Assembly (NCBI GenBank): GCA_021608145.1
Contig: JAKIHM010000001.1
Span: 186,001 to 250,000, forward strand
From: Thermovorax subterraneus
GTDB lineage: Bacteria; Bacillota; Thermosediminibacteria; Thermosediminibacterales; Thermosediminibacteraceae
Direction: 5' to 3'
DNA length: 64,000 nt
Shown: in pieces, positions 9,089 to 30,205 of the stretch
How the letters are laid out: every line of letters begins with the position of its first letter
How positions within the stretch are numbered: position 1 is the first letter of the stretch
Notes under the pieces: generated by a model
The model's database searches: none
Seen by the model: only the letters and a program-made list of their open reading frames with translations
Told to the model about the DNA's origin: nothing
Position numbers and translations under genes: made by a program

Positions 9089-9925
9089 TTGAAAGAAATG
9101 GAAAAACTTAAAAAATTAAAAGACATGATAAAAAATCTCGGCAGTGTAATAGTTGCTTTTTCGGGAGGGGTCGACAGCACCTTCCTTTTGAAAGTTTGTT
9201 TGGACGTGCTCGGGAAAGAGAATGTGCTGGCGGTGACCGCCCGCTCGAGCACCTATCCTTCAAGGGAATTGGAAGAAGCAAAAGAACTCGCAAAAAGCTT
9301 CGGGGCAAACCACGAGATAATAGTCTCGGAAGAACTCGAAGTGCCCGGCTTTTCGGAAAATCCGCCTGAGAGGTGCTATTATTGCAAAAAGGAGCTGTTC
9401 GGGAAGCTCGTTAAAATAGCCCGCGAGAGGGGATTTAACTTCGTGCTGGACGGTTCTAACGCCGACGACACCGGGGACTTCAGGCCGGGAATGAAGGCAA
9501 AGGACGAGCTTGGGGTAATAAGCCCGCTGAAAGAAGCAGGGCTTACGAAAGCTGAAATCAGGGCATTATCCCAAAAAATGGGACTTCCCACGTGGAACAA
9601 GCCCTCGTTTGCGTGCCTGGCATCCCGCTTTCCGTACGGAGAAAGGATAACCGAGGAAAAATTGAACAGGGTTGGAAAAGCTGAAGACCTGCTGAACGAG
9701 CTCGGGTTTATCCAGTACAGAGTAAGGAACCACGCGGACCTTGCAAGAATTGAGGTATCCCCGGAAGAGATAGAAAGGTTCTTTGAAAGAAGCTTGAGGG
9801 AAAAGGTGGTGGCCGAATTCAAAAAGCTGGGCTTTGTCTACGTTTCGCTGGACCTTATCGGATACAGGACTGGCAGCATGAACGAAGGGCTTAAAGAGGA
9901 GGAGAAAGCGCTTTGGAAAAGCTAA
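9089..9925 (+). CDS. larE: NPN sulfur-insertion enzyme LarE (copy 1)
   Basis: PP-loop ATP-pyrophosphatase that adenylylates a pyridinium bis-carboxylate mononucleotide and donates sulfur to it on the way to the nickel-pincer nucleotide. ATP loop [10 protein letters not shown] (Ser25-Ser30). Cys176 in PSFACLASR aligns with the sulfur-donating Cys of known LarE, and Cys96/Cys99 (RCYYCK) could make this the cluster-containing type; that is inferred from family knowledge. TTG start follows GGAGGG. It overlaps larB by 13 bp. It differs from copy 2 by a handful of residues, mostly a short patch near residues 197-208. Confidence 0.93.
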
Positions 9926-10683
9926 AAGAGATTCTTTTAAAAGTCCAAAAAGGCGAGCTTTCCGTTGACGAGGCCATGAACTTTTTAAAATACCTACCTT
10001 ACGAAGACCTGGGATTTGCAAAAGTGGACCATCACAGGGTTTTGAGAAAGGGGGTGCCCGAAGTCATCTTCTGCCAGGGCAAGACCCCGAAGCAGGTGGT
10101 GAGAATTGCGGAGCGGATGATGCAAAAGGGCACGAATATAATGGGCACCAGGGCAAGCTTAGAAATTTTTGAAGAAGTTAAAAAAGCGATCCCCGAAGCC
10201 GTATACTACCCCGACGCACGGATATTTGCGGTGATAAAGGAGCCGGCGCCGAAAAACAAAGGCATCATCGCCGTGGTCTCCGCCGGGACGTCGGACCTCC
10301 CCGTGGCTGAAGAAGCGGCGGTGACCGCAGAGCTTCTGGGCAACAGGGTGGAAAGGCTCTACGACGTGGGCGTAGCAGGGATACACCGGCTTTTCATGAA
10401 CATGGAAGTTTTGGAAAAAGCCCGGGTGATCGTGGTGGTGGCTGGGATGGAAGGGGCCCTCGCCAGCGTGGTAGCAGGCCTTGTGGACAAACCCGTTATA
10501 GCGGTGCCCACCAGCGTCGGATACGGCGCCAATTTTTCAGGCCTTTCGGCCTTACTCACCATGCTGAACAGCTGCGCCGGCGGCATCACAGTGGTGAACA
10601 TCGACAACGGATTCGGCGCGGGTCTTGCCGCCCATCAAATAAACAGGCTAGGAGGCAGGGAAGATGAAACTTCTTTACCTTGA
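9913..10683 (+). CDS. larB: NPN carboxylase/hydrolase LarB (copy 1)
   Basis: 256 residues with a C-terminal PurE-like AIR-carboxylase fold ([20 protein letters not shown], then [21 protein letters not shown] and PTSVGYG). LarB carboxylates nicotinic acid adenine dinucleotide and releases AMP, giving the bis-carboxylated pyridinium mononucleotide used by LarE. ATG 9913 lies inside the end of larE. The two copies in the window are almost the same protein (Ile/Val at about residue 84 is the difference I can see). Confidence 0.93.
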
Positions 10684-11748: not shown

Positions 11749-11786
11749 AATCGAACAGCATTCGGCATTAACGAAAGGATGGTCCT
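11749..11786 (+). promoter_or_regulatory. Second shared element before the first island operon
   Basis: AATCGAACAGCATTC...ATTAACGAAAGGATGGTCCT aligns with 21324-21358 (AATCGAAAGGCATTC...AATAACGAACGATCCTG). Here it runs into the ribosome site of the first gene. The role (start region, second operator or RNA element) is unknown; the conservation between otherwise different flanks is what marks it. Confidence 0.5.
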
Positions 11787-11787
11787 A

Positions 11788-12597
11788 ATGGATATCAGAG
11801 AGTTCTTATTTACTCCATTGAAAGAGCATAAGTTCATAGGGGAGATAATTGCTTTACAACCGGGAATTTTGGCGGGAACAGAAAAATTAAAGGAAGTAGC
11901 TCTGGAATTAGGTTTGGAACTACAATGGATTCTGCAAGAAGGGCAACATATTGCGTCAGGTAGCTGCGTTTGCCGGGCAACAGGTACAGCTTGGCAAATT
12001 GCTCGTGCAGAGGAGGAGCTATTAGGCTGTATCGGTAAGCCTTCGGGCGTTGCTACGGCAGCATCTGAAATAGTTTCTTTAGCTGGTGACAAGGTACGGG
12101 TAGTATGTGGTGCTTGGAAGAAAGTGCCCCGAGAAATACGGGCAGATTTGCGCAAAGCTATCGCGACGGGTGGTGCAGGAATCCGGATAGTAGACGAACC
12201 TTTTGTGTATTTAGATAAGAACTATATCCGCATGTTTGGAGGTATAATTCCGGCGATACGCCGTGCTCAGGAGCTTCAGGAAAGAGTGATTGTAGTGCAG
12301 TTACGAGGGGAGGGAAAAACTTTAGCTGAAGAATCGAGGGAAGCTGCATACGAAGGAGCTCACATACTCATGGTGGATACTGGGAGGATTGAAGATTTAA
12401 AAACGGTACAGGAAGTAGCCTTAAAAGAAGGTTTTCGCAACCAAATTAAATTAGCCTTCGCTGGAGGAGTTAATAAGAATAATGTACGAGATATTGCCAT
12501 AGCGGGGGCAGATATTGTGGATGTGGGACGTGCTATTATCGATGCTCCCTTATTAGATTTCCGTTTAGAAGTAATATGTAAGGCTAACGAGAGGTGA
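11788..12597 (+). CDS. Divergent QPRTase/ModD-like phosphoribosyltransferase
   Basis: About 269 residues with the nicotinate-nucleotide pyrophosphorylase (NadC/ModD) layout: N-terminal swapped domain, then EEELLGCIGKPSGVAT matching the family's helix, and a C-terminal TIM-barrel portion (IKLAFAGGVNKNNVRDIA, ADIVDVG). The substrate signature differs from NadC: the DTRKT site reads GAWKK, the HR pair is absent and KDNH reads LDKNY. It therefore probably takes another pyridine or pyrimidine-like acid. No nadA or nadB is adjacent. ATG 11788 gives better spacing to AAAGG than ATG 11779. It is the first gene of the island operon, 9 bp before the MoaB/CinA-like gene. Confidence 0.7.
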   Translation: MDIREFLFTPLKEHKFIGEIIALQPGILAGTEKLKEVALELGLELQWILQEGQHIASGSCVCRATGTAWQIARAEEELLGCIGKPSGVATAASEIVSLAGDKVRVVCGAWKKVPREIRADLRKAIATGGAGIRIVDEPFVYLDKNYIRMFGGIIPAIRRAQELQERVIVVQLRGEGKTLAEESREAAYEGAHILMVDTGRIEDLKTVQEVALKEGFRNQIKLAFAGGVNKNNVRDIAIAGADIVDVGRAIIDAPLLDFRLEVICKANER

Positions 12598-12606: not shown

Positions 12607-13521
12607 ATGAAATGGGACTTATTGGAGAAGACTACATTTTGGATAGAGGATATAGAGCTTGAGGGTGTAGACTTAACCCAAGTTTCAGCAGCTGCTGCTA
12701 GGGCCTTGGGATTGTCCGAGAATGAAGTTATGGTAGTAGATGTGCGGCCAGGAGTGGTAGCATTCGATGTACTCCGCCGCCACGTTCAAGCAGAGATGGT
12801 GGCCGGTAAGGGTAAGGAAGTACTAGAGAGATTAAGCGAGCTTCCTGGAGTTACCTTGGGACCTGCTGCTTCTGTGCATTCAGAAGGGGTACTAGGACTT
12901 ATCGCCTTGGAACCCGCTTTAGCTCACGAGATCTTAAAGACTTCGGAGAAGATGTCCCGGGAGATTGAAGAAGCCATAATGCGGCGGGCTCTGGTCTTTG
13001 CTTCTGGAAGTGAGCTTTTAGCGGGAAAGGTCCAGGATACTAATTCACCTTACATTATGGAGGCTCTCAGAAACGCGGGTTATAAAGTGAGCTTCGGGGG
13101 GATTCTGGAGGACGATTTAATCACCGTGGTGAACAGGTTAGAAGGTGCTATAGAACAAGGGTACGGTCTTATTATCACAACCGGTGGTGTAGGTGCGGAA
13201 GACAAAGATTGTAATATAGAAGCCATTCTGCGGTTGGACCCTCAAGCCCATACACCCTGGATACTCAAGTTTACACCGGATATGCGCCGCCATCATAAGG
13301 AAGGTGTTCGTATAGCAGTAGGCCGAGTTGGAGTCACAAGGTTGATTGCCCTTCCTGGTCCCCATGAAGAAGCAAAATTAGGGTGCCAGATACTTTTGGA
13401 GTGCCTCAAACAAGGTGTAGATGATGCTGCCTTGGCCGAAAGAATCGCTTGTGTCTTGCGCCGCCGCTGGCAGGAGAAAGTGGGTAGTTGTGTTCATAAT
13501 AATTGTCATATAGAAAGATAA
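12607..13521 (+). CDS. MoaB/CinA-type molybdopterin-binding-domain protein
   Basis: 304 residues. The N-terminal ~125 residues are unassigned (it contains EVMVVDVRPGVVAFDVL). The C-terminal ~170 residues have the MoCF/CinA fold: FASGSELLAGKVQDTNSPYI, then GYGLIITTGGVGAEDKD and VTRLIALPGPHEEA. Such domains bind pterin or nucleotide substrates: Mog adenylylates molybdopterin and CinA cleaves pyrophosphates of nucleotides. Pairing with a QPRTase-like gene suggests a cofactor-nucleotide step, either for the W/Mo pterin of the AOR or for the pyridine nucleotide of the LarA protein; this is inference. A ~100-bp gap follows. Confidence 0.75.
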   Translation: MKWDLLEKTTFWIEDIELEGVDLTQVSAAAARALGLSENEVMVVDVRPGVVAFDVLRRHVQAEMVAGKGKEVLERLSELPGVTLGPAASVHSEGVLGLIALEPALAHEILKTSEKMSREIEEAIMRRALVFASGSELLAGKVQDTNSPYIMEALRNAGYKVSFGGILEDDLITVVNRLEGAIEQGYGLIITTGGVGAEDKDCNIEAILRLDPQAHTPWILKFTPDMRRHHKEGVRIAVGRVGVTRLIALPGPHEEAKLGCQILLECLKQGVDDAALAERIACVLRRRWQEKVGSCVHNNCHIER

Positions 13522-13622: not shown

Positions 13623-14396
13623 GTGGATTTTCAAGCTGTTGCTAAAGAGTTGCTTAAAGCGGAAGTGGAAAGGAGGCCACTTGAGCCCCTTACTTCTACT
13701 TATCCCGGCTTGACGGTAGAAGAGGCTTACCGTATTCAACTTGCCGGGGTGGAAATGAAATTAAAACAAGGACGGAAAGTGATAGGTAAGAAGATTGGTC
13801 TTACTAGCAAGGCTATGCAGGATCTTTTAGGAGTCAAAGAACCTGATTACGGGCACCTTTTGGATCACATGCTTCTCTTAGAGGGTGAGCCCTGTCCGCG
13901 GGAAGAGCTGTTATGGCCCCGAGTAGAAGGAGAAATCGCCTTTATACTTAAAGATACTTTAAAAGGTCCGGGAGTTACCATTGCCGATGTCTTTCGTGCT
14001 ACAGAAGGTGTGATGCCGGCTATTGAAATAGTGGATAGCCGAATACGTGACTGGAAAATTAAGCTTCCTGACACGATAGCAGATAATGCTTCCAGTGCAC
14101 GGTTTGTGTTGGGCAGCCGTATGATACCGGTCAAAGATCTTGACCTTCGCCTTATCGGCATGGTGCTGGAGAAAAACGGCCAGGTAGTCAATACTGGGGC
14201 TGGTGCAGCAGTCTGGGGACATCCTGCCGCGGCTGTAGCCTGGCTGGCCAATAAACTAGCTGAATTTGACATAGCCCTTGAAGCTGGCGAGATCATCTTA
14301 TCTGGAGCGGTAACGGCTGCAGTAGATGCGGTAAAGGATGACGTGTTTACCGTATCTTTCTACGGTTTGGGGACTTTAAGTTTACGCTTCGTCTAG
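13623..14396 (+). CDS. 2-oxopent-4-enoate hydratase family protein (MhpD-like)
   Basis: 257 residues of the FAH-fold hydratase family, which adds water to 2-hydroxypenta-2,4-dienoate to give 4-hydroxy-2-oxovalerate (or acts as a decarboxylase in related members). Metal ligands are visible as the ExE pair in WPRVEGEIAF (Glu102, Glu104) with EIVDSRI later. GKKIGLTS and DNASSARFVLG are typical family blocks. GTG start follows AGGAGG. It is upstream of the two enzymes that act on its product, so the lower meta-cleavage order (hydratase, dehydrogenase, aldolase) is complete. Confidence 0.85.
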   Translation: MDFQAVAKELLKAEVERRPLEPLTSTYPGLTVEEAYRIQLAGVEMKLKQGRKVIGKKIGLTSKAMQDLLGVKEPDYGHLLDHMLLLEGEPCPREELLWPRVEGEIAFILKDTLKGPGVTIADVFRATEGVMPAIEIVDSRIRDWKIKLPDTIADNASSARFVLGSRMIPVKDLDLRLIGMVLEKNGQVVNTGAGAAVWGHPAAAVAWLANKLAEFDIALEAGEIILSGAVTAAVDAVKDDVFTVSFYGLGTLSLRFV

Positions 14397-14449: not shown

Positions 14450-15325
14450 GTGGATCGTGTTAAGGTTGCGGTTATTGGTCCAGGTAATATCGGTTCTGAT
14501 CTTATGTATAAAATCTTACGCAGTCGCTATCTCAAGATGGAGCTCATGGCGGGAATTATAGAATCAGAAGGGATAAAAAGAGCGCGGGCTCTGGGTATAC
14601 GAACCACCACCGAAGGTATAAAGCCTGTTTTAGAAGATGAGAGTATAAAGATAGTTTTCGATGCTACTGGAGCCAAGCATCATTTACAACATGCACCTTT
14701 ACTTAAGGCGGCCGGGAAGATTGCTATAGATCTTACTCCGGCAGCGGTGGGTCCTTATGTAGTTCCGCCTGTCAATCTTAAAGACCTATATATGGAATCT
14801 AATTTGAACATGGTTACCTGCGGTGGGCAAGCTACAGTACCTATTGTATATGCCATAAATAAAGCGGCGGGAGCACACTATGCCGAAATTGTAGCATCTA
14901 TCGCCAGCAAAAGTGCCGGCCCAGGTACCCGGCAAAACATTGATGAATTTACTCAGACCACAGCTAAGGCCCTCTGTGCCATAGGAGGTGCTAAGAAAGG
15001 CAAAGCTATCATTATTCTTAACCCAGCAGAGCCGCCCATTATCATGACCAATACCATTTATGTAGAAGTGGAAAATCCTGACGAAAAAGCCATAAAAGAG
15101 GCAGTACTTAAAATGGTTAAAGAAGTCCAAAGTTATGTACCGGGCTACCGGTTGCGTGTTCCCCCTATAGTAGATGGACATAAAGTTACAACCATCATCG
15201 AGGTGGAAGGTGCAGGAGATTTCCTACCTAAATATGCAGGGAACTTAGACATCATAACCGCGGCAGCTGTAGCTGTAGCTGAAAAATTAGCTGCCCGGAT
15301 GTTAGGAAAGGAAGCGGTAGTATGA
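14450..15325 (+). CDS. mhpF: Acylating acetaldehyde dehydrogenase
   Basis: 291 residues, MhpF/DmpF type: NAD-dependent conversion of acetaldehyde and CoA to acetyl-CoA. The Rossmann motif is [13 protein letters not shown] at the N terminus; the catalytic Cys is in [13 protein letters not shown] (about residue 126). The C-terminal dimer region ([17 protein letters not shown]) is also typical. GTG start follows AAGGAGG. It overlaps the aldolase start by 4 bp, as expected for the channelled aldolase-dehydrogenase complex. Confidence 0.93.
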
Positions 15326-16350
15326 ATTTGAAAAATGGAAATAAGTTTATCCATATAGTTGATACTACTTTACGGGATGGAAGCCATGCTGTATCACACC
15401 AGTTTACCCGTGAGCAAATAGAAGCTATTGCTGCTGGGTTAGATGCTGCTGGCATCGAATATATTGAGGTTTCCCACGGGGATGGTCTAGGTGGTTCTTC
15501 CTATAACTATGGTTGGGCTGCTTTAAGCGATGAAGAGATGCTTAAAGCCGCGTCCGGGGTAATAAAGAAAGCAAAATTAACGGTCCTGTTACTTCCCGGT
15601 ATAGGTACCCAAGAAGATTTAAAACTCGCAATTGACTGCGGCGCAAAAGCGGTCAGGGTGGCCACCCATGTTACCGAAGCCGATATCGGCGAACAACATA
15701 TTGGTCTAGCTAAAAAAATGGGCCTAGAAGCTTTTGGCTTCCTCATGATGGCTCATATGGTTCCACCGGAAAAGGTAGTAGAACAGGCACTTCTCTTTGA
15801 AAGTTATGGAGCAGATTATATTTATATAGCCGATTCGGCTGGTGCCATGCTCCCTGAGGATGTAAAAGCCCGGATAGGAGCGGTAGTGGAAAAAGTTAGG
15901 GTGCCGGTAGGGTTCCATGCCCACAACAATTTAACTCTGGCTACAGCCAATTGTCTGGCGGCTTTGGAGGCCGGGGCTACCTTCCTGGATGGCGCCTGCC
16001 GAGGCTTAGGTGCCGGTGCCGGCAATGCTCAAACCGAGGCTTTGGTTGGCGTGCTGCAGAAAGCAGGATACGAGACGGGAATAGACTTTTACAAGATTAT
16101 GGATGTGGCCGAGGATATTGTGGAGCCTATTATGCATAGGCCACAGGTGGTGCGCAATGCGTCTCTAATGCAGGGGTATGCAGGCGTATATTCTAGCTTC
16201 CTTCTTCATACTTACCGAGCAGCCGAAAAGTTTGGGCTCGATGCACGGGATATCCTTGCAGAGTTAGGGAGGAGGAAGATGGTTGGGGGACAGGAAGATA
16301 TGATTATTGATGTTGCCTATCAACTGGCAAAAAAGAAGGGAGGAAAGTAA
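15322..16350 (+). CDS. mhpE: 4-hydroxy-2-oxovalerate aldolase
   Basis: 342 residues, DmpG/MhpE type: splits 4-hydroxy-2-oxovalerate into pyruvate and acetaldehyde. HMGL-like TIM barrel starts with [15 protein letters not shown]; the metal-binding HAHNN is in [13 protein letters not shown] and [12 protein letters not shown] follows. The C-terminal part supplies the interface for MhpF. ATGA overlap with the dehydrogenase indicates translational coupling. Confidence 0.93.
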
Positions 16351-16352
16351 AA

Positions 16353-16973
16353 TTGAAGGTCGTGAATCTTATGGCGGTTGTAGATGAAGAGAAATGTAAA
16401 GCCTGCCGAACCTGCGAGCGGGTATGCCCGGTTCAAGCCATCAAAGTGGAGAACCGGAAGGCTATAGTAGATGCAGAGCAGTGCCGTGGTTGTGCGGCTT
16501 GTGAGCAGCGCTGCCCATACTATGCTATAACCATGGTCAAACGAGAAGAACCTGTAGAAGTGGCTATAAATATTGATGATGTAGATTACGACAAAGTTAT
16601 AAGTTTGTGCCGCTGTGCGAAGCTTAATCCTGAACAAATAATTTGTTACTGTACAGGAACAAGGGCAGAAGAAGTAGCTGCAGCCATCTTAAAAGGGGCT
16701 CGGTCGCCGGAAGATGTATCATTTATGACAGGGGCCCGAACAGGCTGCAAAGTGGAATGCATCCAGCCTATCTTAAGGCTCCTTAAGGCCGCAGGCATCG
16801 ACCCTGCACCACCTAAAGGTGGTTGGCAATGGTATGGCCAAACTCCTACGGTTTGGGATATACCGGAGAAAGTAAAGCAGAAGTATGCTAGCCGTGGCTT
16901 CTATTTTGATGAAGATATTAAACTTTTAGAGCGGGTGATAGAAGCCCCTTTACAAGGAAGGAGGGAAAATTAA
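16353..16973 (+). CDS. Ferredoxin fused to a BFD-like [2Fe-2S] domain
   Basis: 206 residues. Two 4Fe-4S motifs occupy residues ~15-57 (CKACRTCERVCP and CRGCAACEQRCP). After a linker, residues ~98-150 carry a BFD-like pattern: CYCTGTRAEEVAAAI then TGARTGCKVEC. The C-terminal 60 residues are unassigned. Such proteins pass electrons between ferredoxin and flavoprotein or metal-enzyme partners. It lies between the aldolase (2 bp) and the LarA-like gene (0 bp) and so is likely to be co-translated with both. The TTG start follows GGGAGGA. No redox enzyme sits directly next to it, so its partner is unknown. Confidence 0.85.
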   Translation: MKVVNLMAVVDEEKCKACRTCERVCPVQAIKVENRKAIVDAEQCRGCAACEQRCPYYAITMVKREEPVEVAINIDDVDYDKVISLCRCAKLNPEQIICYCTGTRAEEVAAAILKGARSPEDVSFMTGARTGCKVECIQPILRLLKAAGIDPAPPKGGWQWYGQTPTVWDIPEKVKQKYASRGFYFDEDIKLLERVIEAPLQGRREN

Positions 16974-18419
16974 TTGCGTGCGCCTATACCGCCTATACCC
17001 CCGCGAAAATCACAATATGGTATTGATCCTTCCCTGGTGAGGAAGAGGGTATGCGAGCTTCCGGGTATGACTTCGGTGCTTCTTAAGGAGCTCTTCCCGG
17101 ATTTGCCCGAGGTTATATACCCGGGTGAGGAGGGAGTAGCGACCATTCGTAAAGCTACGGAAGAAGCCTTACGAAATGTAGATATGAGTAAAATAAAGCC
17201 GGAACATTCGGTAAATATTTTGGCTTCCCATCACGGTTTTACTCTTCTGGGCGGTGAGCCATATGCGGAGATGCTCAAAACTATCAAGGATGTGATTGAA
17301 GCCCGGACAGGATGTAAGAATATTCGCCTTCGGGCCGGAGTGGGCTTGCGCTTCCGGGAGACGGAAGAATATATTAAACGGTACGGTCTAGATGAATATT
17401 TTGGCGGCAAAGCCATAGGTGTGGCTCCTATTGATGAAGGGATCCCCATCGAAACCGAGATCGGTACCCTCTATGGCATAAAGAAAATTTACGATGCCGA
17501 TTGGATCGTCCATGCCCACAATTCTGATGTGCGGGAGGTACATTTCCACCGTCAAGTTGACCGGGCGGTAAAGCCCTTCGGCATGTCCTATGCCCGTATT
17601 GAGACTCGTTCCACCTATCACCAGAACCTTGGTCCTCGCGCGGCCAACTTTACAGCTCGGGCTATCTTTGATTCGCCCTTTGTCCAGAGCAAGTTCGCCT
17701 TCGCCTGCTTCTTGATGGTGGCCCCTAACGGTATTATGGGCGTGGATGCAGATAACGATTTATATGCTTTGAACGACCGCGTAACCTATTTAGGGTGCCG
17801 TTACTACGGCAAGATGATGACCCTCTTTGGCGAGATAGACGAATGCATTGTTGCCTTAGACTTCCCCTGCCCGGTGGTCTATGTGTTCTCGGCCGGTGTC
17901 ATCTACGCCAACTTTGCGGGGGCTAATACCGACCTGTATGACCTGGATAATCCACTGCCCGGTTATACCTGGTACACCGAAGCCTTCTACGGCAAGCGGG
18001 GCAAGCCTTTGTTGGATGATATACCGCCCCTCAACCCGGCTATCAAGATGTGTGTTCACAATTATGCTTGGACCGGATATCCCAGCGCCTTCTTCAGCGA
18101 GCATATTCCTACGGTGGTAGTAGGCCGGGAGCAGGCTGAACTTTTCAACCGCGACCCACAAAACCTCAACTATATGAAGTATGCTGTGGTGGCCGAGACT
18201 ACGGAGGCGGCCATGGAATTCGCCTATAAGGTAACTGGTACTCGGAAGGTTTTGATCTTCGACGGCGCCATTGGCGGTATCAACTTAAGCGAACCCTTGG
18301 CCGAGTTCTTGCTCAAGCGGGCACCAGCGGTGAGCGAACGGGTAGAAAATGAGCTATTGCCTAAGTGGTTGCGACAGAGGGGGGTGGATCTGTCGCTTCT
18401 TAAACGTGCTGCTAGCTAA
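16974..18419 (+). CDS. LarA-family (DUF2088) nickel-pincer-nucleotide enzyme
   Basis: 481 residues. Assigned from pattern and context. In Lactobacillus LarA, His174, Lys184 (which covalently holds the cofactor) and His200 (Ni ligand) are spaced 10 and 16 apart; here His190, Lys200 and His216 (HFHRQVDRAVK, TYHQN) have exactly those spacings. The usual GxHRxxTEEE loop with catalytic His108 reads GLRFRETEEY, so Arg replaces that His. LarA enzymes racemise or epimerise 2-hydroxy acids; the altered residue suggests different chemistry or substrate. The gene lies on an island flanked by larE and larB, which make its cofactor. TTG start after GGAAGGAGGG. Confidence 0.7.
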   Translation: MRAPIPPIPPRKSQYGIDPSLVRKRVCELPGMTSVLLKELFPDLPEVIYPGEEGVATIRKATEEALRNVDMSKIKPEHSVNILASHHGFTLLGGEPYAEMLKTIKDVIEARTGCKNIRLRAGVGLRFRETEEYIKRYGLDEYFGGKAIGVAPIDEGIPIETEIGTLYGIKKIYDADWIVHAHNSDVREVHFHRQVDRAVKPFGMSYARIETRSTYHQNLGPRAANFTARAIFDSPFVQSKFAFACFLMVAPNGIMGVDADNDLYALNDRVTYLGCRYYGKMMTLFGEIDECIVALDFPCPVVYVFSAGVIYANFAGANTDLYDLDNPLPGYTWYTEAFYGKRGKPLLDDIPPLNPAIKMCVHNYAWTGYPSAFFSEHIPTVVVGREQAELFNRDPQNLNYMKYAVVAETTEAAMEFAYKVTGTRKVLIFDGAIGGINLSEPLAEFLLKRAPAVSERVENELLPKWLRQRGVDLSLLKRAAS

Positions 18420-18453
18420 GTACCAGGATATTAGGGCTCAAGGGTGGTTATAT

Positions 18454-18487
18454 GGGTATCTCTCCGATCAATAGCGGAGAGATACCC
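18454..18487 (+). promoter_or_regulatory. Intercistronic hairpin
   Basis: GGGTATCTCTCCG pairs perfectly with CGGAGAGATACCC across an 8-nt loop. There is no T run, so it is more likely an mRNA-stabilising or attenuating stem between the LarA-like gene and the transporter. Confidence 0.65.
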
Positions 18488-18549
18488 CCAAAAATGCACA
18501 GCCTCAAAATAAAGGGGCAAAAATAATATTAAAAACAGGAGGTAGAGTT

Positions 18550-19803
18550 ATGGCGCTTTCAACCAATGCAGTTCCCTCCAAGAAGGAGCCTATCTGGGAA
18601 AAAGGACCCGGATTTAGCGAGGGACTGCGCGATTTATGGAGCAAGCTTAATGTTAACACCGTTACAGCAGGCATTGTCGCTACTATTTTTGGGTGTACGG
18701 GACCTGCACTGATTATTATGAATGCTGCCCAGAATGGTAAACTTACTGATGCTCAAACTATTTCTTGGCTTTTTTCTGTATATTTCTTCGGTGGTCTCAT
18801 TGGCATAATATTAGGTCTATATTACAAAATGCCTATCAATGGAGCCTGGTCCATTCCTGGGGCAGTAATGGTGGCTTCGGCTCTGCCTTTGTTCCCCTTT
18901 AATGAAGCCGTCGGCGCGTACCTGATCGCTGGTATACTGGTCTTGTTGCTCGGCGTATCAGGTCTTATCGGTAAGGCCATGCGCTGGATTCCGTTACCTA
19001 TTGTGATGGCTATGATTGCAGGCGCCATGTTCAGGTTCGGACTAGGAATCGTAACTTCCACACAAAAAGCTCCTATTATCGCCGGTGCTGCTCTTATAGC
19101 CTACTTTGCTGGCCAGAGGTTAACGAAAAAGATCTCTCCTATTCTTTGGTCCCTTATAGTTGGCGTCATAGTAGCTTTCTTCGTAGGCGGCTTCAAATTT
19201 GCTGACGTTAAGATCACTTGGATACCACCGCAGTTCTTTGTCCCGAGTTTCTCTGTGGGCGCTCTGTTCGCTATTGCTATTCCCTTGGCTGTCCTGGTAA
19301 TAGGGGCAGAAAATGCCCAGGCCTATGGAGTGTTAACTGCTCAAGGGTATAAAGCCCCGATAAACGCCATGACGGTTATTAGTGGCATAGGAGGCATCGT
19401 AACTTCCTTCTTTGGCGGCCATAATGCCAATATCGCAGGACCGATGACCGCCATTTGTAGCTCGGAAGAGGCTGGCCCAGATAAATCAGGGCGTTACGCA
19501 GCTACTATTGTTAACGGTATTACGTTCGGGTCTTTTGGGCTTTTCGCCAGTGTTGCTGTACCCTTTGTTAAAGCTTTGCCTTCAGACCTGGTAAGTTTGC
19601 TGGCAGGGCTAGCCATGATAGGGGTATTGTTAAGTGCTTTTGAACAGGCTTTCTCCAGCAGAAAGTTTAGGTATGGCGCATTTTTTGCTTTAGTTGTAGC
19701 CATGTCCGGGATAACCCTTTTAAAGATCAGCGCTCCTTTCTGGTCTTTGGTAATAGGAGTGATCGTTTCCCTCATAATGGAACCGCAGGACTTTGAACGC
19801 TAA
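18550..19803 (+). CDS. BenE-like carboxylate/proton symporter
   Basis: 417 residues, about 12 hydrophobic segments. The fold is that of NCS2/BenE-type transporters, with the substrate-site stretch IGAENAQAYGVLTAQGYKAP and GGHNANIAGPMTAICSSEEAG. BenE members take up benzoate or related carboxylates. In this operon it probably imports the acid degraded by the island enzymes; the actual substrate is not visible. It starts 130 bp after the LarA-like gene with AGGAGGT and ends 18 bp before the M24 gene. Confidence 0.82.
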   Translation: MALSTNAVPSKKEPIWEKGPGFSEGLRDLWSKLNVNTVTAGIVATIFGCTGPALIIMNAAQNGKLTDAQTISWLFSVYFFGGLIGIILGLYYKMPINGAWSIPGAVMVASALPLFPFNEAVGAYLIAGILVLLLGVSGLIGKAMRWIPLPIVMAMIAGAMFRFGLGIVTSTQKAPIIAGAALIAYFAGQRLTKKISPILWSLIVGVIVAFFVGGFKFADVKITWIPPQFFVPSFSVGALFAIAIPLAVLVIGAENAQAYGVLTAQGYKAPINAMTVISGIGGIVTSFFGGHNANIAGPMTAICSSEEAGPDKSGRYAATIVNGITFGSFGLFASVAVPFVKALPSDLVSLLAGLAMIGVLLSAFEQAFSSRKFRYGAFFALVVAMSGITLLKISAPFWSLVIGVIVSLIMEPQDFER

Positions 19804-19821: not shown

Positions 19822-20925
19822 GTGGCCCCTCGTTTTGCCCAACGGTTCAAAAGGATCCAAGCCCTCATGGCAGACACAGACCTGGACTTATTGCTGGTAA
19901 CCAACCGCGAAAACCTGATTTATTTCACTGGTCTTACCCAGATAGAATGTTTGGCCGTTCTTATACCCCGGGAGGGAGAGCCCTGTGCGATCACCTTGTG
20001 GGTGGATGCCGAGTATGTACAGCAGGAGTCAGGCTTAACAACTTACGGCTATTTCTTCCCCCGGGAGAGCCTTGGTAGTAAACTTGTGGAGAGGATTAAA
20101 GCTTATGGATTCAAGGCGCCGCGTATAGGATTTGAAAGGTATTTTGTACCCTACGCCGTATACGATGCCTTGCGCCAGGCCTTCTCGGAGGAGAACTTCG
20201 TAGCTGCTGCAGATCTCTTTTACCGTGTAAGGTCCATTAAAGAGCCGGAAGAGGTAGAACTAATACGGCGGGCGGCGGCAGCCGCCTGCCGTGGCATGGA
20301 AGCAGCTATCAAGGCGGTAAGGCCGGGTGTAACAGAGCTAGATATTCTTGCCGAAGCAGAGTATGCCATGCTAAAAGCTGGCTCAGAAGGTTCTCCCTTC
20401 CGGCCCCAGGTAGTTTCCGGAGAGCGGACTTTGCTTACCCACCCTTGCGCAAGCCACAAAAAGGTTCAGCCTGGGGAAGTGGTGGTCATACACCTGGGAG
20501 CCACCTATGAAGGCTACTGTGCCAAGATGTGCCGGACTGTAGCCGTGGGGGCCATTTCTCCGGGCCGGGAAGAAGTATATAGAATTTTAGTGGAGGCTCA
20601 AGAGAAGGCTATATCCGTACTAAGGCCAGGGGCTAGATCTTGGGAGGTAGACGCTGCTGCCAGGGAAGTTATAAAAAGGGCAGGGTATGAGGAGTATTAT
20701 CTTGATGTAGTGGGTTATGGAGTCGGGCTTAGACAATCAGAGTTCTATCCTATCATAGGTAAAGGCCGGACAGAGATCATTGAGGCAGGCATGGTGGTGG
20801 ACTTGCTGCTACCCACCATCTACCGCCGGGACATCGGTGGCCCCAGGATAACAGATGTAATCTATGTCGGTGAAGAGAGGAATGAGATTTTAACTGATTA
20901 TCCTAAGGAACTGGTTAAAGTATAA
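19822..20925 (+). CDS. Creatinase/M24-fold hydrolase lacking metal ligands
   Basis: 367 residues with creatinase N-terminal domain and pita-bread C-terminal domain. In metal-dependent M24 peptidases two Asp, one His and two Glu bind metal. Here the Asp positions read VVIHLGATYEGY (His) and GYCAKMCRT (Lys); the His block reads VGYGVGLRQSE, and the Glu positions read MVVDLLLP (Leu) and PRITDVI (Asp). All five appear replaced, as in metal-free creatinase-type hydrolases. It therefore probably hydrolyses a small C-N substrate rather than a proline peptide. It is the last gene of the first island operon. Confidence 0.8.
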   Translation: MAPRFAQRFKRIQALMADTDLDLLLVTNRENLIYFTGLTQIECLAVLIPREGEPCAITLWVDAEYVQQESGLTTYGYFFPRESLGSKLVERIKAYGFKAPRIGFERYFVPYAVYDALRQAFSEENFVAAADLFYRVRSIKEPEEVELIRRAAAAACRGMEAAIKAVRPGVTELDILAEAEYAMLKAGSEGSPFRPQVVSGERTLLTHPCASHKKVQPGEVVVIHLGATYEGYCAKMCRTVAVGAISPGREEVYRILVEAQEKAISVLRPGARSWEVDAAAREVIKRAGYEEYYLDVVGYGVGLRQSEFYPIIGKGRTEIIEAGMVVDLLLPTIYRRDIGGPRITDVIYVGEERNEILTDYPKELVKV

Positions 20926-21521: not shown

Positions 21522-21752
21522 AACATAAAACAACCTTAATAATTATGTAAAAGAGATCTTACGACTGTTATTAATCTTTACCCTTTTTAAAATAGTTGAA
21601 ATATTATTCTTTAATGCTATAAAATATGAGAGATTGTTAATCTTGATAATTTAAATAATATTAATGTTATTTGGAAGGAGGGATATATTAAAGATTTTTA
21701 AATTTATCAACATTACTCAAAAATTACACAAAATTAAGGGGGAGTGCATAAT

Positions 21753-22955
21753 ATGTTTCCGATGTTGAAGGTGGTAGAGTATTATACTCCACAGAAGGTT
21801 GTTTTTGGTGTTAATGCGGTTGATAATTTAGGACGTTACATCAAGGACACGGGCATAACGGGGAAAGGTATAATTGTGACTGATCCTGTAATAGTGCAGA
21901 CAGGAAGTGCAGAGAGAGTATCACAAGCTCTAAAGAAGGAAGGTTTTGAAGTAGCTATTTTTGATCAAGCTAAACCTGAGCCAGATGATGTGGTATGCGA
22001 TCAGGCTAGTGAATTTGCACGCAAAGAAAAAGGCAACTTTGTAATTGGCTTAGGTGGAGGAAGTTCCATTGATATTGCGAAAGTAGTTGCTCAACTTTTA
22101 GTGTTACCGGGTAAGACTGCAGATTATTTAGTTACTACTACCTTCCCGAAAAAAGGTGCACCTATTATTGCTATTCCTACTACGTCGGGTACGGGTACTG
22201 AATGTACTATGTATTCAGTAATTACTTTTGCGAAAGATGGGATAAAAGGATTTTTTGCCACACCTTATATTCTGCCTGATTTAGCACTAGTAGATCCGAC
22301 ACTTACTATAAGCATGCCACCGAAGGTGACAGCTTCTACAGGTGCGGATGCTTTAGCCCATGCAATTGAGACTATGATGGCTAAGCAAGAGAATCCTCTT
22401 ACTGATGCAATTGCTTTGAAAGCGATAGAATTTATAGCTGAGGCTTTACCAGTGGCGGTTTATGAAGGGAATAATTTAGAAGCTCGAGTTAAAATGGCGT
22501 ATGCATCAATGATGGCAGGCATGGCTTTTAATGATCCAGGTATCGTAGAAGGGCATGCTTTGGCACACACATTAGGGTCTGTATATCATGTACCACATGG
22601 GGTTGGTTGTGCAGTTGCTTTACCTTACGTTATGGAGTATAACATGGGACATTGCATGGATAAGCTGGCACGCATTGCTATAGCATTAGGTCAGAATACA
22701 TCTGGCATGAATGTTCGTGAGGCTGCTCAAGCTGCTGTATACGCGGTTAAGCAGTTATTAGAAGATGTAGGGTTACCAACCACTTGGGCTCCATTTGGCA
22801 AGAAAGAGGATATTCCGAAGTTGGCTGATATGATGGTGAATTGTTCATGGATTACAGCTTTTTATGGATGGTGCAAGCGTACGATGACGAAGGAAGCGGC
22901 AGAAGAATTGCTTACAAGAAGTTATGAAGGACGTTTAGGAGAAAAGCTGTACTAG
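21753..22955 (+). CDS. Iron-containing alcohol dehydrogenase
   Basis: About 400 residues, group III Fe-dependent ADH. NAD-binding GGGSSIDIAK and TTSGTGTECT are present, with metal-site His residues in HAIETMM and EGHALAHTLGSVYHVPHGVG. It interconverts an alcohol and an aldehyde. Paired with an AOR it would supply or remove the aldehyde; within the island it could also handle the acetaldehyde released by the aldolase. ATG 21753 is preferred over GTG 21744 because AAGGGGGA lies 9 nt upstream. Confidence 0.93.
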   Translation: MFPMLKVVEYYTPQKVVFGVNAVDNLGRYIKDTGITGKGIIVTDPVIVQTGSAERVSQALKKEGFEVAIFDQAKPEPDDVVCDQASEFARKEKGNFVIGLGGGSSIDIAKVVAQLLVLPGKTADYLVTTTFPKKGAPIIAIPTTSGTGTECTMYSVITFAKDGIKGFFATPYILPDLALVDPTLTISMPPKVTASTGADALAHAIETMMAKQENPLTDAIALKAIEFIAEALPVAVYEGNNLEARVKMAYASMMAGMAFNDPGIVEGHALAHTLGSVYHVPHGVGCAVALPYVMEYNMGHCMDKLARIAIALGQNTSGMNVREAAQAAVYAVKQLLEDVGLPTTWAPFGKKEDIPKLADMMVNCSWITAFYGWCKRTMTKEAAEELLTRSYEGRLGEKLY

Positions 22956-23041: not shown

Positions 23042-23506
23042 ATGGCTAAAATATTAATGGTAGATCCTTCATTATGCACTGGATGCCACCGTTGTGAGAT
23101 GTGGTGTTCGTTGACTAAGTATGGGGAAATAAATCCATCTCGAACTAATGTGTATGTAGTAAGGAGAGAGCCAGGAATAGATGTACCAGTAGTATGTTTA
23201 CAATGTGGGTTGTGTATAAATGTCTGTCCCACTGGAGCACTAAAGCGCGATCAAAAAACAATGGCTGTAGTTGTAGATGGAGAGAAGTGTGTAGGCTGTG
23301 GTAAGTGTGTAAGTGTTTGTCCAATTGGTGTGCTCAGAATAGATAAAGAAACAAAGATAGCTACTAAGTGCGATTTGTGTGGAGGCTCACCAGCATGTGC
23401 AGCTCATTGTCCGCAGAATGCTATTAGATATGAGAATGTAGATAAAGTTGCAGCAAAACGTAGAGAACTTTGGGCTGTAGCTCAAGCTAAAAAGATAAAA
23501 GAATAA
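23042..23506 (+). CDS. Polyferredoxin electron-transfer subunit (HycB-like)
   Basis: 154 residues with four cysteine sets: CTGCHRCEMWC, CLQCGLCINVCP, CVGCGKCVSVCP and CDLCGGSPACAAHCP, enough for four [4Fe-4S] clusters. The last spacing (CxxCxxxxxCxxxC) is typical of HycB/DmsB-type subunits. It is 29 bp before the AOR gene, so it most likely accepts electrons from that enzyme. No membrane anchor or twin-arginine signal is present, so it is cytoplasmic. Confidence 0.9.
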   Translation: MAKILMVDPSLCTGCHRCEMWCSLTKYGEINPSRTNVYVVRREPGIDVPVVCLQCGLCINVCPTGALKRDQKTMAVVVDGEKCVGCGKCVSVCPIGVLRIDKETKIATKCDLCGGSPACAAHCPQNAIRYENVDKVAAKRRELWAVAQAKKIKE

Positions 23507-23535: not shown

Positions 23536-25419
23536 ATGTGGTATGGTTACGCTGGTAAGCTTTTAAGAGTTAATTTGACAACAAAAGATATTAAGATAGA
23601 AGAGCTAGATCAACAAGAATTAAGAAAATATATTGGTTGTTCAGGTTATGCAGCTAAGATACTTTATCAAGAAATGCCTGCCGGTATAGATCCACTATCT
23701 CCAGAAAGTAAAGTAGTTTTATCAACAGGACCAGTTACAGGGACGCTTACTCCAAGTGGTGGAAGTTATGAAGTTTGTTACAAGTCACCTTTGACGGGTA
23801 CATGGAATCAAGCACGTTCGGGAGGAGCTTTTGGGCCAAAACTCAAGTATGCAGGTTTTGATTTTGTTATAATTGAAGGAAAAGCTGAAGAACCTGTTTA
23901 TCTTTATATTTACGATGGTTCAGTAGAGATTAGGTGTGCTAAACATTTATGGGGGTTGAATGTGGAAGAAACTACTGATACTTTAATACGTGAACTAGAT
24001 GATCCTGAAATTTGTATTGCCGCTATAGGGCAGGCTGGTGAAAATGGAGTTCTATATGCTGCATTGATGAATGACAGGGGACGAGCTGCGGGCCGTGGCG
24101 GAATTGGTGCAGTATTTGGTAGCAAAAATTTAAAGGCAGTTGTAGTTAACGGTCATAAAGGAGTCAAAGTTGCCCAACCAGAAAAGTTTGCTAAAGCGAT
24201 CGAAAAGGCTGAACAATGGCTGCAAAATTATCCATTCCAGTCTATACCGTTATTTGGCACTGTGGGATTAGTATCTTTGAATAATAGCTTAGGGATACTA
24301 CCGACTAAAAATTTTGAAACTGCTTATTTCGAAAAAGCGGAAAAGGTTTCAGGAGAAGTTATAAACAAACAATATAATATTAAACGTCGTGCTTGTTATG
24401 GTTGTAATTTCGCATGTGGAAGATATACAGCGGTAAAAAATGGAAAATTTGCCACTCCACCTATGGAAGGTCCAGAGTATGAAACAGTAGATATGTTCGG
24501 ACCTATCTGTTTAGTTGAAGATATAGAAGCTGTAATTAGAGCTAATTACTTATGTAATGTATATGGTTTGGATACAATTAGTACTGGCTTAAGTATTGGA
24601 TTTGTTATGGAATGCTACGAGAAAGGATTGCTAACAGAAAAAGATACAGATGGATTAGACTTACGATGGGGTAATGCGGAAGCAATGATAAAATTAATTG
24701 AAAAGATTGTTACGAAAGAAGGGTTTGGTGCATTTGTTGCTCAGGGTGTAAAGAGAATGGCTGAAAAATTAGGACCTAAAGCGGAAGAAATAGCTAATCA
24801 TGTTAAAGGACTTGAGGTACCAGCACACGAACCACGTTCTGAATCTAAAGTCATAGCACTACAATATGCTGTTACCCCTCGTGGTGCATGTCATATGCAT
24901 CCAACGTGGGCTAGTACGTTTGATTTTGGACAACTTGAGTGTGGAATGAAAGAATTTGGTATGCCATGGCCACCTGAGCCTATTCCTGCGGAAACACCGA
25001 CAAAAGGTAAAGCTTATCGATATGTAGCTTTGCAAGGTGAGATAAGTGAGATTGTAGGTGCATGTATTTTCCACTCATGGGGTACTGAAGGTAGCTGCAT
25101 AACACCTCAACTTTATGCTGAGATAGTTAGTGCACTTACGGGTTGGGATGTGACAGCAGAGGAATTGATTAAGGCAGCGGAGCGTTCGTGGAATTTGAAA
25201 CGATGTTTTAATGGCAGAGAAGGATTTACCCGCAAAGATGACAAGTTGCCAAAACGCTTCTCACAAGCTATTCCTAATGGTCCTTCTAAGGGAGCTAAAG
25301 TAGAAAACTTGGATACTATGTTGGATGCATATTATGAAGCAATGGGGTGGGATAAAGCTACAGGTTTACCAACTTCTGAAAAACTAAAAGAATTAGGTTT
25401 GGAATTCGCAATTAATTAA
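23536..25419 (+). CDS. aor: Aldehyde:ferredoxin oxidoreductase (tungsten type)
   Basis: 627 residues. N-terminal MWYGYAGKLLRVNLTTKD is typical of AOR domain 1, with pterin-contact regions near GRGGIGAVFGSKNLKA (about residue 190). Cys ligands of the [4Fe-4S] cluster are in RRACYGCNFACGR and a later Cys (GACIFH or EGSCITPQ). The enzyme oxidises aldehydes to acids with ferredoxin as acceptor, or the reverse at low potential. Neighbouring ADH, polyferredoxin and a MoaD-like protein fit a W-enzyme operon. Codons are clearly more AT-rich than in the 11.8-20.9 kb block. Confidence 0.93.
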   Translation: MWYGYAGKLLRVNLTTKDIKIEELDQQELRKYIGCSGYAAKILYQEMPAGIDPLSPESKVVLSTGPVTGTLTPSGGSYEVCYKSPLTGTWNQARSGGAFGPKLKYAGFDFVIIEGKAEEPVYLYIYDGSVEIRCAKHLWGLNVEETTDTLIRELDDPEICIAAIGQAGENGVLYAALMNDRGRAAGRGGIGAVFGSKNLKAVVVNGHKGVKVAQPEKFAKAIEKAEQWLQNYPFQSIPLFGTVGLVSLNNSLGILPTKNFETAYFEKAEKVSGEVINKQYNIKRRACYGCNFACGRYTAVKNGKFATPPMEGPEYETVDMFGPICLVEDIEAVIRANYLCNVYGLDTISTGLSIGFVMECYEKGLLTEKDTDGLDLRWGNAEAMIKLIEKIVTKEGFGAFVAQGVKRMAEKLGPKAEEIANHVKGLEVPAHEPRSESKVIALQYAVTPRGACHMHPTWASTFDFGQLECGMKEFGMPWPPEPIPAETPTKGKAYRYVALQGEISEIVGACIFHSWGTEGSCITPQLYAEIVSALTGWDVTAEELIKAAERSWNLKRCFNGREGFTRKDDKLPKRFSQAIPNGPSKGAKVENLDTMLDAYYEAMGWDKATGLPTSEKLKELGLEFAIN

Positions 25420-25640: not shown

Positions 25641-25874
25641 ATGAAAGTAAAAGTAAAGTTGATAGGAATACTTTCTCACTATTATCCTGCTCTTAGAGAG
25701 TTTAAAAGTGTGGAATTAGAAGATGGTATTACAGTTGAAGGATTACGTAAAAAATTAGGCCTATCCGAGGATTTAGTTACTTTCGTAATAGTAAACGATG
25801 AGATGGTTGAAAACAGTTATAAGTTAAGAGAAAATGATAAAGTTTTGTTTTTACCAGCAGTTAGTGGAGGATAG
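25641..25874 (+). CDS. MoaD/ThiS-like sulfur carrier
   Basis: 77 residues with ubiquitin-like fold and the C-terminal di-glycine (AVSGG) that is thiocarboxylated in MoaD/ThiS. Dedicated MoaD paralogs commonly accompany AOR genes and serve tungstopterin synthesis. GAGGTG ribosome site. It lies 220 bp past the AOR terminator, so it may have its own promoter. No moaE or moeB-like activating enzyme is nearby; a chromosomal one must be used. Confidence 0.88.
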   Translation: MKVKVKLIGILSHYYPALREFKSVELEDGITVEGLRKKLGLSEDLVTFVIVNDEMVENSYKLRENDKVLFLPAVSGG

Positions 25875-27460: not shown

Positions 27461-28261
27461 ATGGAAAGAAATCCTGCTCAGATAAGGTCAGTAGCTAAGG
27501 CTTTGAAGATAATCGACATTCTAGCAGAAGCTCGTAAAGAATTAGCTTTGCACGATATAGCCCAAAAGTTAGGTTTGGCTAAAAGCACTGTCCACGGACT
27601 ACTTGCAACTTTAAAGAGTTTCGGATATGTAGAACAATCCCCTTTTACGGGCAAATATAAGCTGGGGGTACGTTTGTTTGAAATAGGAAATATTGTAGCT
27701 CATAGCTGGGATGTGCGGGCGGTAGCAGCTCCATATATTCAGAAGTTAGTGAACGAATTAGAAGAAACAGTTCACCTTGTTGTAATGGATAAAGGAGAAG
27801 TGTTATATATCGATAAAAGAGAGAGTCTTCAGTCTATACGCATAGTTTCTCAAATTAGAATGCGACTTCCTGCTCACTGTACCGGAGTAGGTAAAGTGTT
27901 ATTGGCTTACCTTCCATCTAGTGAAGTAAAGAGAATTATTGCTCAAAAAGGTCTTCCGCGTTTTACCAAAAATACTATAACAGATCCCAAAGCCTTAGAA
28001 GAGGAACTAGTTAAGATACGTATCCAAGGATATGCCATAGATAATGAGGAAATTATGGACAGTCTCCGCTGTGTGGCTGCTCCTATTCGTGATCACACAG
28101 GAAAAGTTTGTGCTGCAATAAGTGTATCAGGCCCCGTAGCAAGATTAGATGGAGAAAAGCTTAAGCTAGCTATAGATTTAGTAACAAAAACGGCGAAAGA
28201 CATATCAGCCGGTCTGGGTTATCGGGAAGAACTTGTTGGTAAACCAGTTTCTTTCACATAA
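27461..28261 (+). CDS. IclR-family transcriptional regulator
   Basis: 266 residues. N-terminal winged helix (IRSVAKALKIIDILAE, then HDIAQKLGLAKSTVHGLLATL) and C-terminal effector domain (LRLPAHCTGVGKVLLAYL-like block, and YAIDNEEIMDSLRCVAAPIRD). IclR proteins often control catabolism of aromatic or hydroxy acids. It is the only regulator on the island, and the 15-bp palindromes at 11668 and 21259 have the right size for its sites, so it is the best candidate for regulating both operons. Strong AAGGAGG ribosome site. Confidence 0.92.
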   Translation: MERNPAQIRSVAKALKIIDILAEARKELALHDIAQKLGLAKSTVHGLLATLKSFGYVEQSPFTGKYKLGVRLFEIGNIVAHSWDVRAVAAPYIQKLVNELEETVHLVVMDKGEVLYIDKRESLQSIRIVSQIRMRLPAHCTGVGKVLLAYLPSSEVKRIIAQKGLPRFTKNTITDPKALEEELVKIRIQGYAIDNEEIMDSLRCVAAPIRDHTGKVCAAISVSGPVARLDGEKLKLAIDLVTKTAKDISAGLGYREELVGKPVSFT

Positions 28262-28610: not shown

Positions 28611-29447
28611 TTGAAAGAAATGAAAAAACTTGAAAAATTAAAAGACATGATAAAAAATCTCGGCAGTGTAATAGTTGCTTTTTCGGGAGGGGTCGACAGC
28701 ACTTTCCTTTTGAAAGTTTGTTTGGACGTGCTCGGGAAAGAGAATGTGCTGGCGGTGACCGCCCGCTCGAGCACCTATCCTTCAAGGGAATTGGAAGAAG
28801 CAAAAGAACTCGCAAAAAGTTTCGGGGCAAACCACGAGATTATAGTCTCGGAAGAACTCGAGGTGCCCGGCTTTTCGGAAAATCCGCCGGAGCGGTGCTA
28901 TTATTGCAAAAAGGAGCTGTTCGGGAAGCTCGTTAAAATGGCCCGCGAAAGGGGGTTTAATTTCGTCCTGGACGGCTCTAACGCCGACGACACCGGGGAC
29001 TTCAGGCCGGGAATGAAGGCAAAGGACGAGCTTGGGGTAATAAGCCCGCTGAAGGAAGTGGGGCTTACGAAAGCTGAGATCAGGGCATTATCCCAAAAAA
29101 TGGGACTTCCCACGTGGAACAAGCCCTCGTTTGCGTGCCTGGCATCCCGCTTTCCGTACGGAGAAAGGATAACCGAGGAAAAATTGAACAGGGTTGGGAG
29201 GGCAGAAGAGATTTTAAGAGGCCTCGGGTTTTCCCAGTACAGAGTAAGGAACCACGCGGACCTTGCAAGAATTGAGGTATCTCCGGAAGAGATAGAAAGG
29301 TTCTTTGAAAGAAGCTTGAGGGAAAAGGTGGTGGCCGAATTCAAAAAGCTGGGCTTTGTCTACGTTTCGCTGGACCTTACCGGATACAGGACCGGCAGCA
29401 TGAACGAAGGGCTTAAAGAGGAGGAAAAAGCGCTTTGGAAAAGCTAA
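28611..29447 (+). CDS. larE: NPN sulfur-insertion enzyme LarE (copy 2)
   Basis: 278 residues; same function and motifs as copy 1 ([16 protein letters not shown], Cys176 in FACLASR). Differences from copy 1 include MKKLEK versus MEKLKK near the start, Met/Ile at about residue 110, Val/Ala at about 150, and the patch [14 protein letters not shown] versus [14 protein letters not shown]. This copy leads the complete larE-larB-larC operon, now with upstream sequence supplied by the island rather than by recD2. Confidence 0.93.
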
Positions 29448-30205
29448 AAGAGATTCTTTTAAAAGTCCAAAAAGGCGAGCTTTCCGTTGACGAGGCCATG
29501 AACTTTTTAAAATACCTACCTTACGAAGACCTGGGATTTGCAAAAGTGGACCATCACAGGGTTTTGAGAAAGGGAGTGCCCGAAGTCATCTTCTGTCAGG
29601 GCAAGACCCCGAAGCAGGTGGTGAGAATTGCGGAGCGGATGATGCAAAAGGGCACGAATATAATGGGCACCAGGGCAAGCTTAGAAGTTTTTGAAGAAGT
29701 GAAAAAAGCGATTCCCGAAGCGGTGTATTACCCGGACGCCCGGATATTTGCGGTGATAAAGGAGCCGGCGCCGAAAAACAAAGGCATCATCGCCGTGGTC
29801 TCCGCCGGGACGTCGGACCTCCCCGTGGCTGAAGAAGCGGCGGTGACCGCAGAGCTTCTGGGCAACAGGGTGGAAAGGCTCTACGACGTGGGCGTAGCAG
29901 GGATACACCGGCTTTTCATGAACATGGAAGTTTTGGAAAAAGCCCGGGTGATCGTGGTGGTGGCTGGGATGGAAGGGGCCCTCGCCAGCGTGGTAGCAGG
30001 CCTTGTGGACAAACCCGTTATAGCGGTGCCCACCAGCGTTGGATACGGCGCCAATTTTTCAGGCCTTTCGGCCTTACTCACCATGCTGAACAGCTGCGCC
30101 GGCGGCATCACAGTGGTGAACATCGACAACGGATTCGGCGCGGGTCTTGCCGCCCATCAAATAAACAGGCTAGGAGGCAGGGAAGATGAAACTTCTTTAC
30201 CTTGA
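29435..30205 (+). CDS. larB: NPN carboxylase/hydrolase LarB (copy 2)
   Basis: Same 256-residue protein as copy 1 apart from Val for Ile near residue 84. It overlaps larE by 13 bp and larC by 20 bp, indicating tight coupling. Catalyses the first NPN step from nicotinic acid adenine dinucleotide. Confidence 0.93.

Follow-up and report, generated by a model that had tools for sequence, protein, structure and literature searches.

An open reading frame of the window (the whole stretch of 64,000 nucleotides analysed here) encodes a protein, here called X, that is related to the nickel-dependent lactate racemase LarA and has so far gone uncharacterised. Predicted structures indicate that X almost certainly has the two-domain LarA fold, and it probably uses the nickel-pincer nucleotide (NPN). 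As judged from sequence, X stands outside the LarA family both by profile and by catalytic residues, the equivalents of Asp72, Arg75 and His108 being absent. Gene context makes it rather likely that X acts in furan-carboxylate breakdown, and we tentatively propose that it opens the furan ring reductively, acting on 2-furoate as an NPN-dependent enzyme linked to ferredoxin. The features of the locus are listed in Table 1.

Table 1. Genes and codons of the X locus, with positions in the window
Feature	Position	Strand	Basis
larE and larB, first copy	9089..10683	+	TIGR00268, NF033503 over cut-off
QRPTase-like protein, altered active site; cofactor maturation possible	11779..12597	+	Pfam QRPTase N and C domains
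MoCF (molybdopterin-binding/CinA-like) domain protein	12607..13521	+	Pfam MoCF_biosynth
MhpD-like 2-hydroxypenta-2,4-dienoate hydratase	13623..14396	+	TIGR03220 best, 323.7 bits, below cut-off 408.8
MhpF, acetaldehyde dehydrogenase (acetylating)	14450..15325	+	TIGR03215 over cut-off
MhpE, 4-hydroxy-2-oxovalerate aldolase	15322..16350	+	TIGR03217 over cut-off
Ferredoxin, two [4Fe-4S] motifs and BFD-like [2Fe-2S] domain; presumed electron donor to X	16353..16973	+	Pfam Fer4, Fer2_BFD
X, LarA-fold protein, 481 aa	16974..18419	+	ORF; fold match to LarA only; 64-member family
Arg126 codon of X, position of LarA His108	17349..17351	+	hhalign register
His190 codon of X, position of LarA His174	17541..17543	+	Spacing to Lys200; His in 53/64, else Tyr/Asp
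Lys200 codon of X, presumed NPN tether (LarA Lys184)	17571..17573	+	Invariant, 64/64
His216 codon of X, presumed nickel ligand (LarA His200)	17619..17621	+	Invariant, 64/64
BenE-type aromatic acid transporter, presumed furoate uptake	18550..19803	+	Pfam BenE, TIGR00843 over cut-off
M24 (creatinase/prolidase-like) hydrolase	19822..20925	+	Pfam Peptidase_M24; 33/60 loci
Iron-containing alcohol dehydrogenase; furfuryl alcohol to furfural possible (putative substrate)	21744..22955	+	Pfam Fe-ADH
Ferredoxin-like partner of aldehyde oxidoreductase	23042..23506	+	Pfam 4Fe-4S domains
Aldehyde ferredoxin oxidoreductase; furfural to furoate possible (putative substrate)	23536..25419	+	Pfam AFOR_N, AFOR_C
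ThiS/MoaD-like protein adjoining aldehyde oxidoreductase	25641..25874	+	Pfam ThiS
IclR-type regulator; homologue in 41/60 loci	27461..28261	+	Pfam IclR_C
larE, larB (second copy) and larC	28611..31358	+	TIGR00268, NF033503, TIGR00299 over cut-off

Relationship of X to LarA

The TTG start codon of X directly abuts the 3′ end of the ferredoxin gene, and the N-terminus that it opens, MRAPIPPIPP, is common to relatives. Searches of Pfam (E-value threshold of 1) and NCBIfam matched no family, including Lar_N (PF09861), phmmer against PDB sequences gave chance matches only, and a profile HMM of X found nothing convincing among 33 canonical LarA ORFs (best E-value 0.024). When the same genome was scanned with Lar_N, three other ORFs were matched, X not among them. 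Identity between X and LarA is about 15%, and X was not found on plasmids.

Template-free AlphaFold2 prediction gave two models, one built with 49 relatives (pLDDT 85.7) and one with 40 more diverse relatives (pLDDT 90.3). Both reach Z-scores of 15-18.7 to 12 LarA-type entries, among them LarA, Mar2, the Isosphaera racemase, single-histidine LarA homologues and Thermotoga 4nar, while the next best fold scores 7.0. The earlier note had placed X with LarA from residue spacings, and both predicted models are indeed LarA-like rather than of an unrelated fold. Foldseek TM-scores are modest (0.37-0.53), likely due to a differing orientation of the two domains, as occurs between known LarA homologues (PMC12611868). 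The hhalign alignment of the X family with LarA is colinear over residues 53-183, and its register is weak and local, so the relationship rests on the fold.

Active-site residues and cofactor anchors

Residue counts were made across 64 relatives from several phyla of bacteria and archaea. His190, Lys200 and His216 keep the spacings of 10 and 16 residues that separate His174, Lys184 and His200 of LarA, as the earlier note had read; the equivalence of Lys200 and His216 to Lys184 and His200 is by spacing and motif, not superposed coordinates. The pattern H-x9-K-x15-H is present in 29 of 33 canonical LarA-type ORFs and in 53 of the 64 X relatives, compared with 1.8% of shuffled sequences. Seven residues never change in the 64 sequences (Lys200, His216, His180, Arg187, Arg193, Glu210 and Arg212), and the His174 position is His in 53 and Tyr or Asp in the remainder.

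The altered G-x-H-R loop that had also been remarked upon is real: X reads G124-L-R126-F-R128-E, with Arg126 aligned weakly on His108 by hhalign (E-value 0.027 with canonical LarA, and 0.0083 when the broader family is used). Arg occupies this position in 48 of 49 sequences of the first set and 56 of 64 in the wider one, the others having Gly or Ala. Rather than serving as a base, Arg126 may hold either the carboxylate or the oxygen that leaves. The LarA motif D-x-T-R, whose Asp72 and Arg75 hold the NPN ribose and phosphate (PMC12611868, PMC11770544), occurs in 26 of 33 LarA ORFs versus 1 of 64 members of the X family, and X itself is without it. The description of X as a LarA with one acid/base residue changed was right as to the fold, the cofactor Lys, the nickel-ligand His and the replacement of His108 by Arg. 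It was too narrow in that X also lacks Asp72 and Arg75 and is picked up by no LarA profile.

It had further been asked whether Arg at the His108 position defines a clade linked to MhpD/E/F, and the tree bears this out for MhpD. Arg126 with His190 characterises the clade linked to MhpD, and Gly/Ala or Asp/Tyr forms occur in the clade without it; the 12 rows lacking MhpD are explained by one change (support 93/86). The exception is a long-branched row (L110), which has Arg126 and His190 yet no MhpD. The cofactor anchors are fixed across the X family, while the acid/base positions follow genomic context.

Genomic neighbourhood of X

By scanning genome contigs we obtained 60 X loci from Bacillota, Myxococcota, Thermodesulfobacteriota, a spirochaete, Archaeoglobus and Thermoproteota. 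The neighbours of X across these loci are ferredoxin (55), MoCF (46), QRPTase-like (45), MhpD (44), MhpE and MhpF (38-39) and BenE and M24 (about 34), counts that are affected by several contigs ending early. Several loci that keep ferredoxin, X, QRPTase-like, MoCF and MhpD have neither MhpE nor MhpF.

The substrate class put forward earlier, a 2-hydroxy or 2-oxo acid from the MhpD-E-F pathway, would make X an NPN-dependent racemase or epimerase, or else a dehydrogenase linked to ferredoxin. In its favour, MhpD, MhpF and MhpE adjoin X in 38-44 of 60 loci and every characterised LarA homologue uses 2-hydroxy acids (PMC7583248, PMC11770544). We consider this distinctly improbable: X has lost one acid/base His together with the Arg75 that binds the carboxylate, a racemase does not need a ferredoxin, and the pathway contains no 2-hydroxy acid. 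4-hydroxy-2-oxovalerate, rejected here as a substrate, is not one, and the dispensability of MhpE and MhpF argues against it too. That dispensability, together with the recurrence of HmfF (below), leaves the proposed substrate class unsupported.

Compared with human QPRT, the QRPTase-like family has R102, R138, H160, K171 and E201 replaced and K139, R161 and D222 kept, all of which we take to be acid- or PRPP-binding residues. We rejected the view that the gene at 11779 acts as a canonical QRPTase, because most of the acid-binding residues are lost. Although the proposed furoate chemistry does not need them, the QRPTase-like and MoCF proteins accompany X almost as constantly as the ferredoxin does; they may mature or modify the cofactor of X, an idea consistent with the lack of Asp72 and Arg75.

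Association with NPN biosynthesis

larB, larC and larE each score over cut-off in 35 of 39 X-carrying genomes, and they adjoin X in 14 of 60 loci (flanks of up to 10 kb) as well as in the window. Among 299 sampled genomes of the phylum, 18 of 19 with X have LarB, versus 139 of 280 without X (Fisher 6e-5, an optimistic p-value as genome relatedness is ignored). Four genomes (G007, G018, G030 and G032) have X and larB/C/E with no Lar_N gene at an E-value of 0.001. Conversely, two X genomes (G019 and G020), one of them a complete chromosome, have ordinary LarA genes and no match to larB/C/E; genomes of this kind are those of Breznakiella homolactica (L036) and Oscillibacter sp. 1-3 (L038). In Archaeoglobus sp. 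JdFR-37 (L052, L093), X and a Lar_N-type gene apparently share one 12.3-kb contig.

These counts also bear on whether the cofactor that X would hold in its LarA fold is, instead of plain NPN, another one or an altered form whose making involves the QRPTase-like and MoCF proteins. The absence of Asp72 and Arg75, which hold NPN in LarA, would agree with such a cofactor, as would the two X genomes without larB/C/E and the fact that QRPTase-like and MoCF genes accompany X at 45-46 of 60 loci and across most of the divergent clades. We nevertheless judge it unlikely, in view of the frequency of larB/C/E in X genomes and at X loci, the invariance of the Lys and the nickel-ligand His, and the loss from the QRPTase-like protein of most acid-binding residues of real QRPTases.

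In a published survey, about 15% of genomes carry larB/E/C without larA, so that further NPN proteins are expected (PMC11796402). X is a concrete candidate in some such genomes, among them Moorella thermoacetica DSM 21394. Of the 157 genomes with LarB in the phylum sample, 39 lack a Lar_N match, and X is present in 2 of these 39. X was thus rejected as an explanation of all orphan larBCE genomes, and other NPN proteins remain to be found.

Association with furan carboxylates

Clustering of all neighbouring ORFs revealed one further recurrent enzyme, a UbiD protein. Among solved structures its best match is PtHmfF (6H6V; 551 bits, versus 194 for the next PDB relative). The UbiD protein is carried by 12 loci at 48-66% identity to PtHmfF, with the furan-specificity His, and also the Arg, kept in 12 of 12. 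One HmfF residue has been named as key to furan specificity, favouring furans over pyrroles (PMC7976604), and we take the His of the E-H-L-L-L-G motif to be this residue. HmfF converts FDCA to 2-furoate (PMC6604932). Within the phylum sample, 5 of 19 X genomes encode HmfF (60% identity or above), versus 2 of 280 others (Fisher 1e-5, optimistic for the reason given above), and in all five it lies within 16 kb of X. The furoate idea had been drawn from carbon and redox balance before HmfF was detected.

HmfF was not found in the window's own genome (E-value threshold of 1e-80). No BenE was seen in the 12 HmfF loci, a point weakened by short contigs; mutual absence of BenE and HmfF is what would be expected if the two are alternative entries of furoate. 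The aerobic hmfABCDE/furoyl-CoA route was rejected, as no such genes recur near X. Because HmfF recurs and MhpE and MhpF are dispensable, we place X before MhpD, acting on an aromatic furan carboxylate.

Proposed reaction of X

From what was computed (the fold, the invariant Lys and His, the Arg in place of His108, the neighbourhood and the links to larB/C/E and HmfF) we infer a mode of cofactor binding, a substrate, a hydride chemistry and a direction of electron flow. NPN would be carried on Lys200, with nickel liganded by His216, and X would work as a reductase, not a racemase. The ferredoxin encoded just upstream would reduce the NPN cofactor, supplying two electrons, and the reduced NPN would pass a hydride to 2-furoate at C5. 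Vinylogous cleavage of the C5-O bond would then release 2-hydroxypenta-2,4-dienoate. By our own reckoning the formulae balance (C5H4O3 + 2[H] = C5H6O3), the product being exactly the substrate of MhpD. MhpD would hydrate it, MhpE would yield pyruvate and acetaldehyde, and MhpF would convert the latter to acetyl-CoA. Furoate could enter through BenE, from FDCA through HmfF in other genomes, or from furfural through the alcohol dehydrogenase and aldehyde oxidoreductase.

Several observations weigh against this proposal: the missing Asp72 and Arg75, the MhpD score below the family cut-off, the own genome without HmfF, the two X genomes without larB/C/E, and the QRPTase-like and MoCF proteins for which the reaction has no need.

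Pyrrole-2-carboxylate, thiophene-2-carboxylate or some other heteroaromatic carboxylate might instead undergo the same reductive opening, with divergent paralogues serving further substrates. Desulfobacterota paralogues without MhpD, beside other genes and in up to 4 copies per genome, would suit this, and BenE carries aromatic acids in general; pyrrole-2-carboxylate, if reduced and deaminated, would by our own chemistry also give 2-oxopent-4-enoate. Against it, the UbiD proteins next to X are HmfF-type enzymes retaining the His by which furans are preferred to pyrroles (PMC7976604), and no recurrent deaminating enzyme was found among the clustered neighbouring ORFs. We regard this alternative as improbable.

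The Thermodesulfobacteriota sample (the phylum of locus L058) gave 15 X matches in 10 genomes, up to 4 per genome. Some divergent paralogues retain QRPTase-like and MoCF genes and others have only ferredoxin nearby. One genome (G414; L115, L116 and L117) has 4 X paralogues, 3 of them in a tandem region that also holds several ferredoxins, a distant UbiD gene and an aldehyde oxidoreductase; its paralogues perhaps act on several heteroaromatic substrates.

History of the locus

Two larE-larB copies (9089-10789 and 28611-30311), 97.1% identical over 1703 bp, flank an X island of 17.8 kb (about 10790-28560 of the window). In two genomes of the same genus (L095 and L096) the site is joined, with a single larEB and no island, and in a genome of the same family the island stands in front of one larEBC. 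Given the flanking copies, the island-free sites and the arrangement in the same family, the island was probably acquired by recombination at larEB.

Comparison with known systems

X shares with LarA and its homologues (PF09861, COG3875; PDB 5HUQ, 6C1W, 9EIA) the two-domain fold, the Lys and His positions with their spacing, and the presence of larB/C/E in the same genomes, often at the same locus. It differs from them in having no Lar_N match, in the change of His108 to Arg (Gly/Ala in other clades), in the missing Asp72 and Arg75, and in its ferredoxin partner and aromatic-acid gene neighbourhood. The top structural match of X is the single-histidine LarA subfamily (LarA_Sp and LarA_Bw; 9Q3K and 9Q3J; Z-scores of 18.5-18.7), which also has the LarA fold with one catalytic His missing and a substrate likewise unassigned. 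LarA_Sp and LarA_Bw keep His108 and have Asn in place of His174, whereas X shows the reverse, with Arg126 and His190; they also keep the cofactor Asp, are seen by Lar_N-type searches and lie near carbohydrate genes (PMC12611868).

The known NPN enzymes do no more than take a hydride from a 2-hydroxy acid and return it. It is conceivable, and we put it a shade more cautiously than the furoate reaction itself, that X is the first net-redox NPN enzyme, with a cofactor possibly modified via the QRPTase-like and MoCF partners. Its ferredoxin-driven opening of the aromatic furan ring would then be the key step of a so far undescribed anaerobic pathway for furoate and FDCA, common to acetogens, sulfate reducers, gut Oscillospiraceae and Archaeoglobus. 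We found neither an anaerobic furoate pathway nor an NPN reductase in the open-access literature; a prior description in subscription papers is possible.

Furan acids are by-products of plant biomass, and furans inhibit the fermentation of biomass hydrolysates. A 2018 review named only two anaerobic microorganisms that degrade furan aldehydes, without giving the pathway (PMC6604932). The aerobic Trudgill pathway for furfural and HMF (hmfABCDE and hmfFGH of Cupriavidus basilensis) has the same 2-furoate entry, and relatives of its HmfF stand beside X in the 12 loci. That pathway hydroxylates furoyl-CoA and ends at 2-oxoglutarate (PMC6604932), whereas the X cluster would exit via MhpD-E-F to pyruvate and acetyl-CoA. 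The X cluster, which is widely common among oxygen-avoiding microbes, looks like an undescribed anaerobic route of furan-acid breakdown; if so, it would fill a gap in anaerobic furan degradation, and oxygen-free removal of furans would be directly useful.
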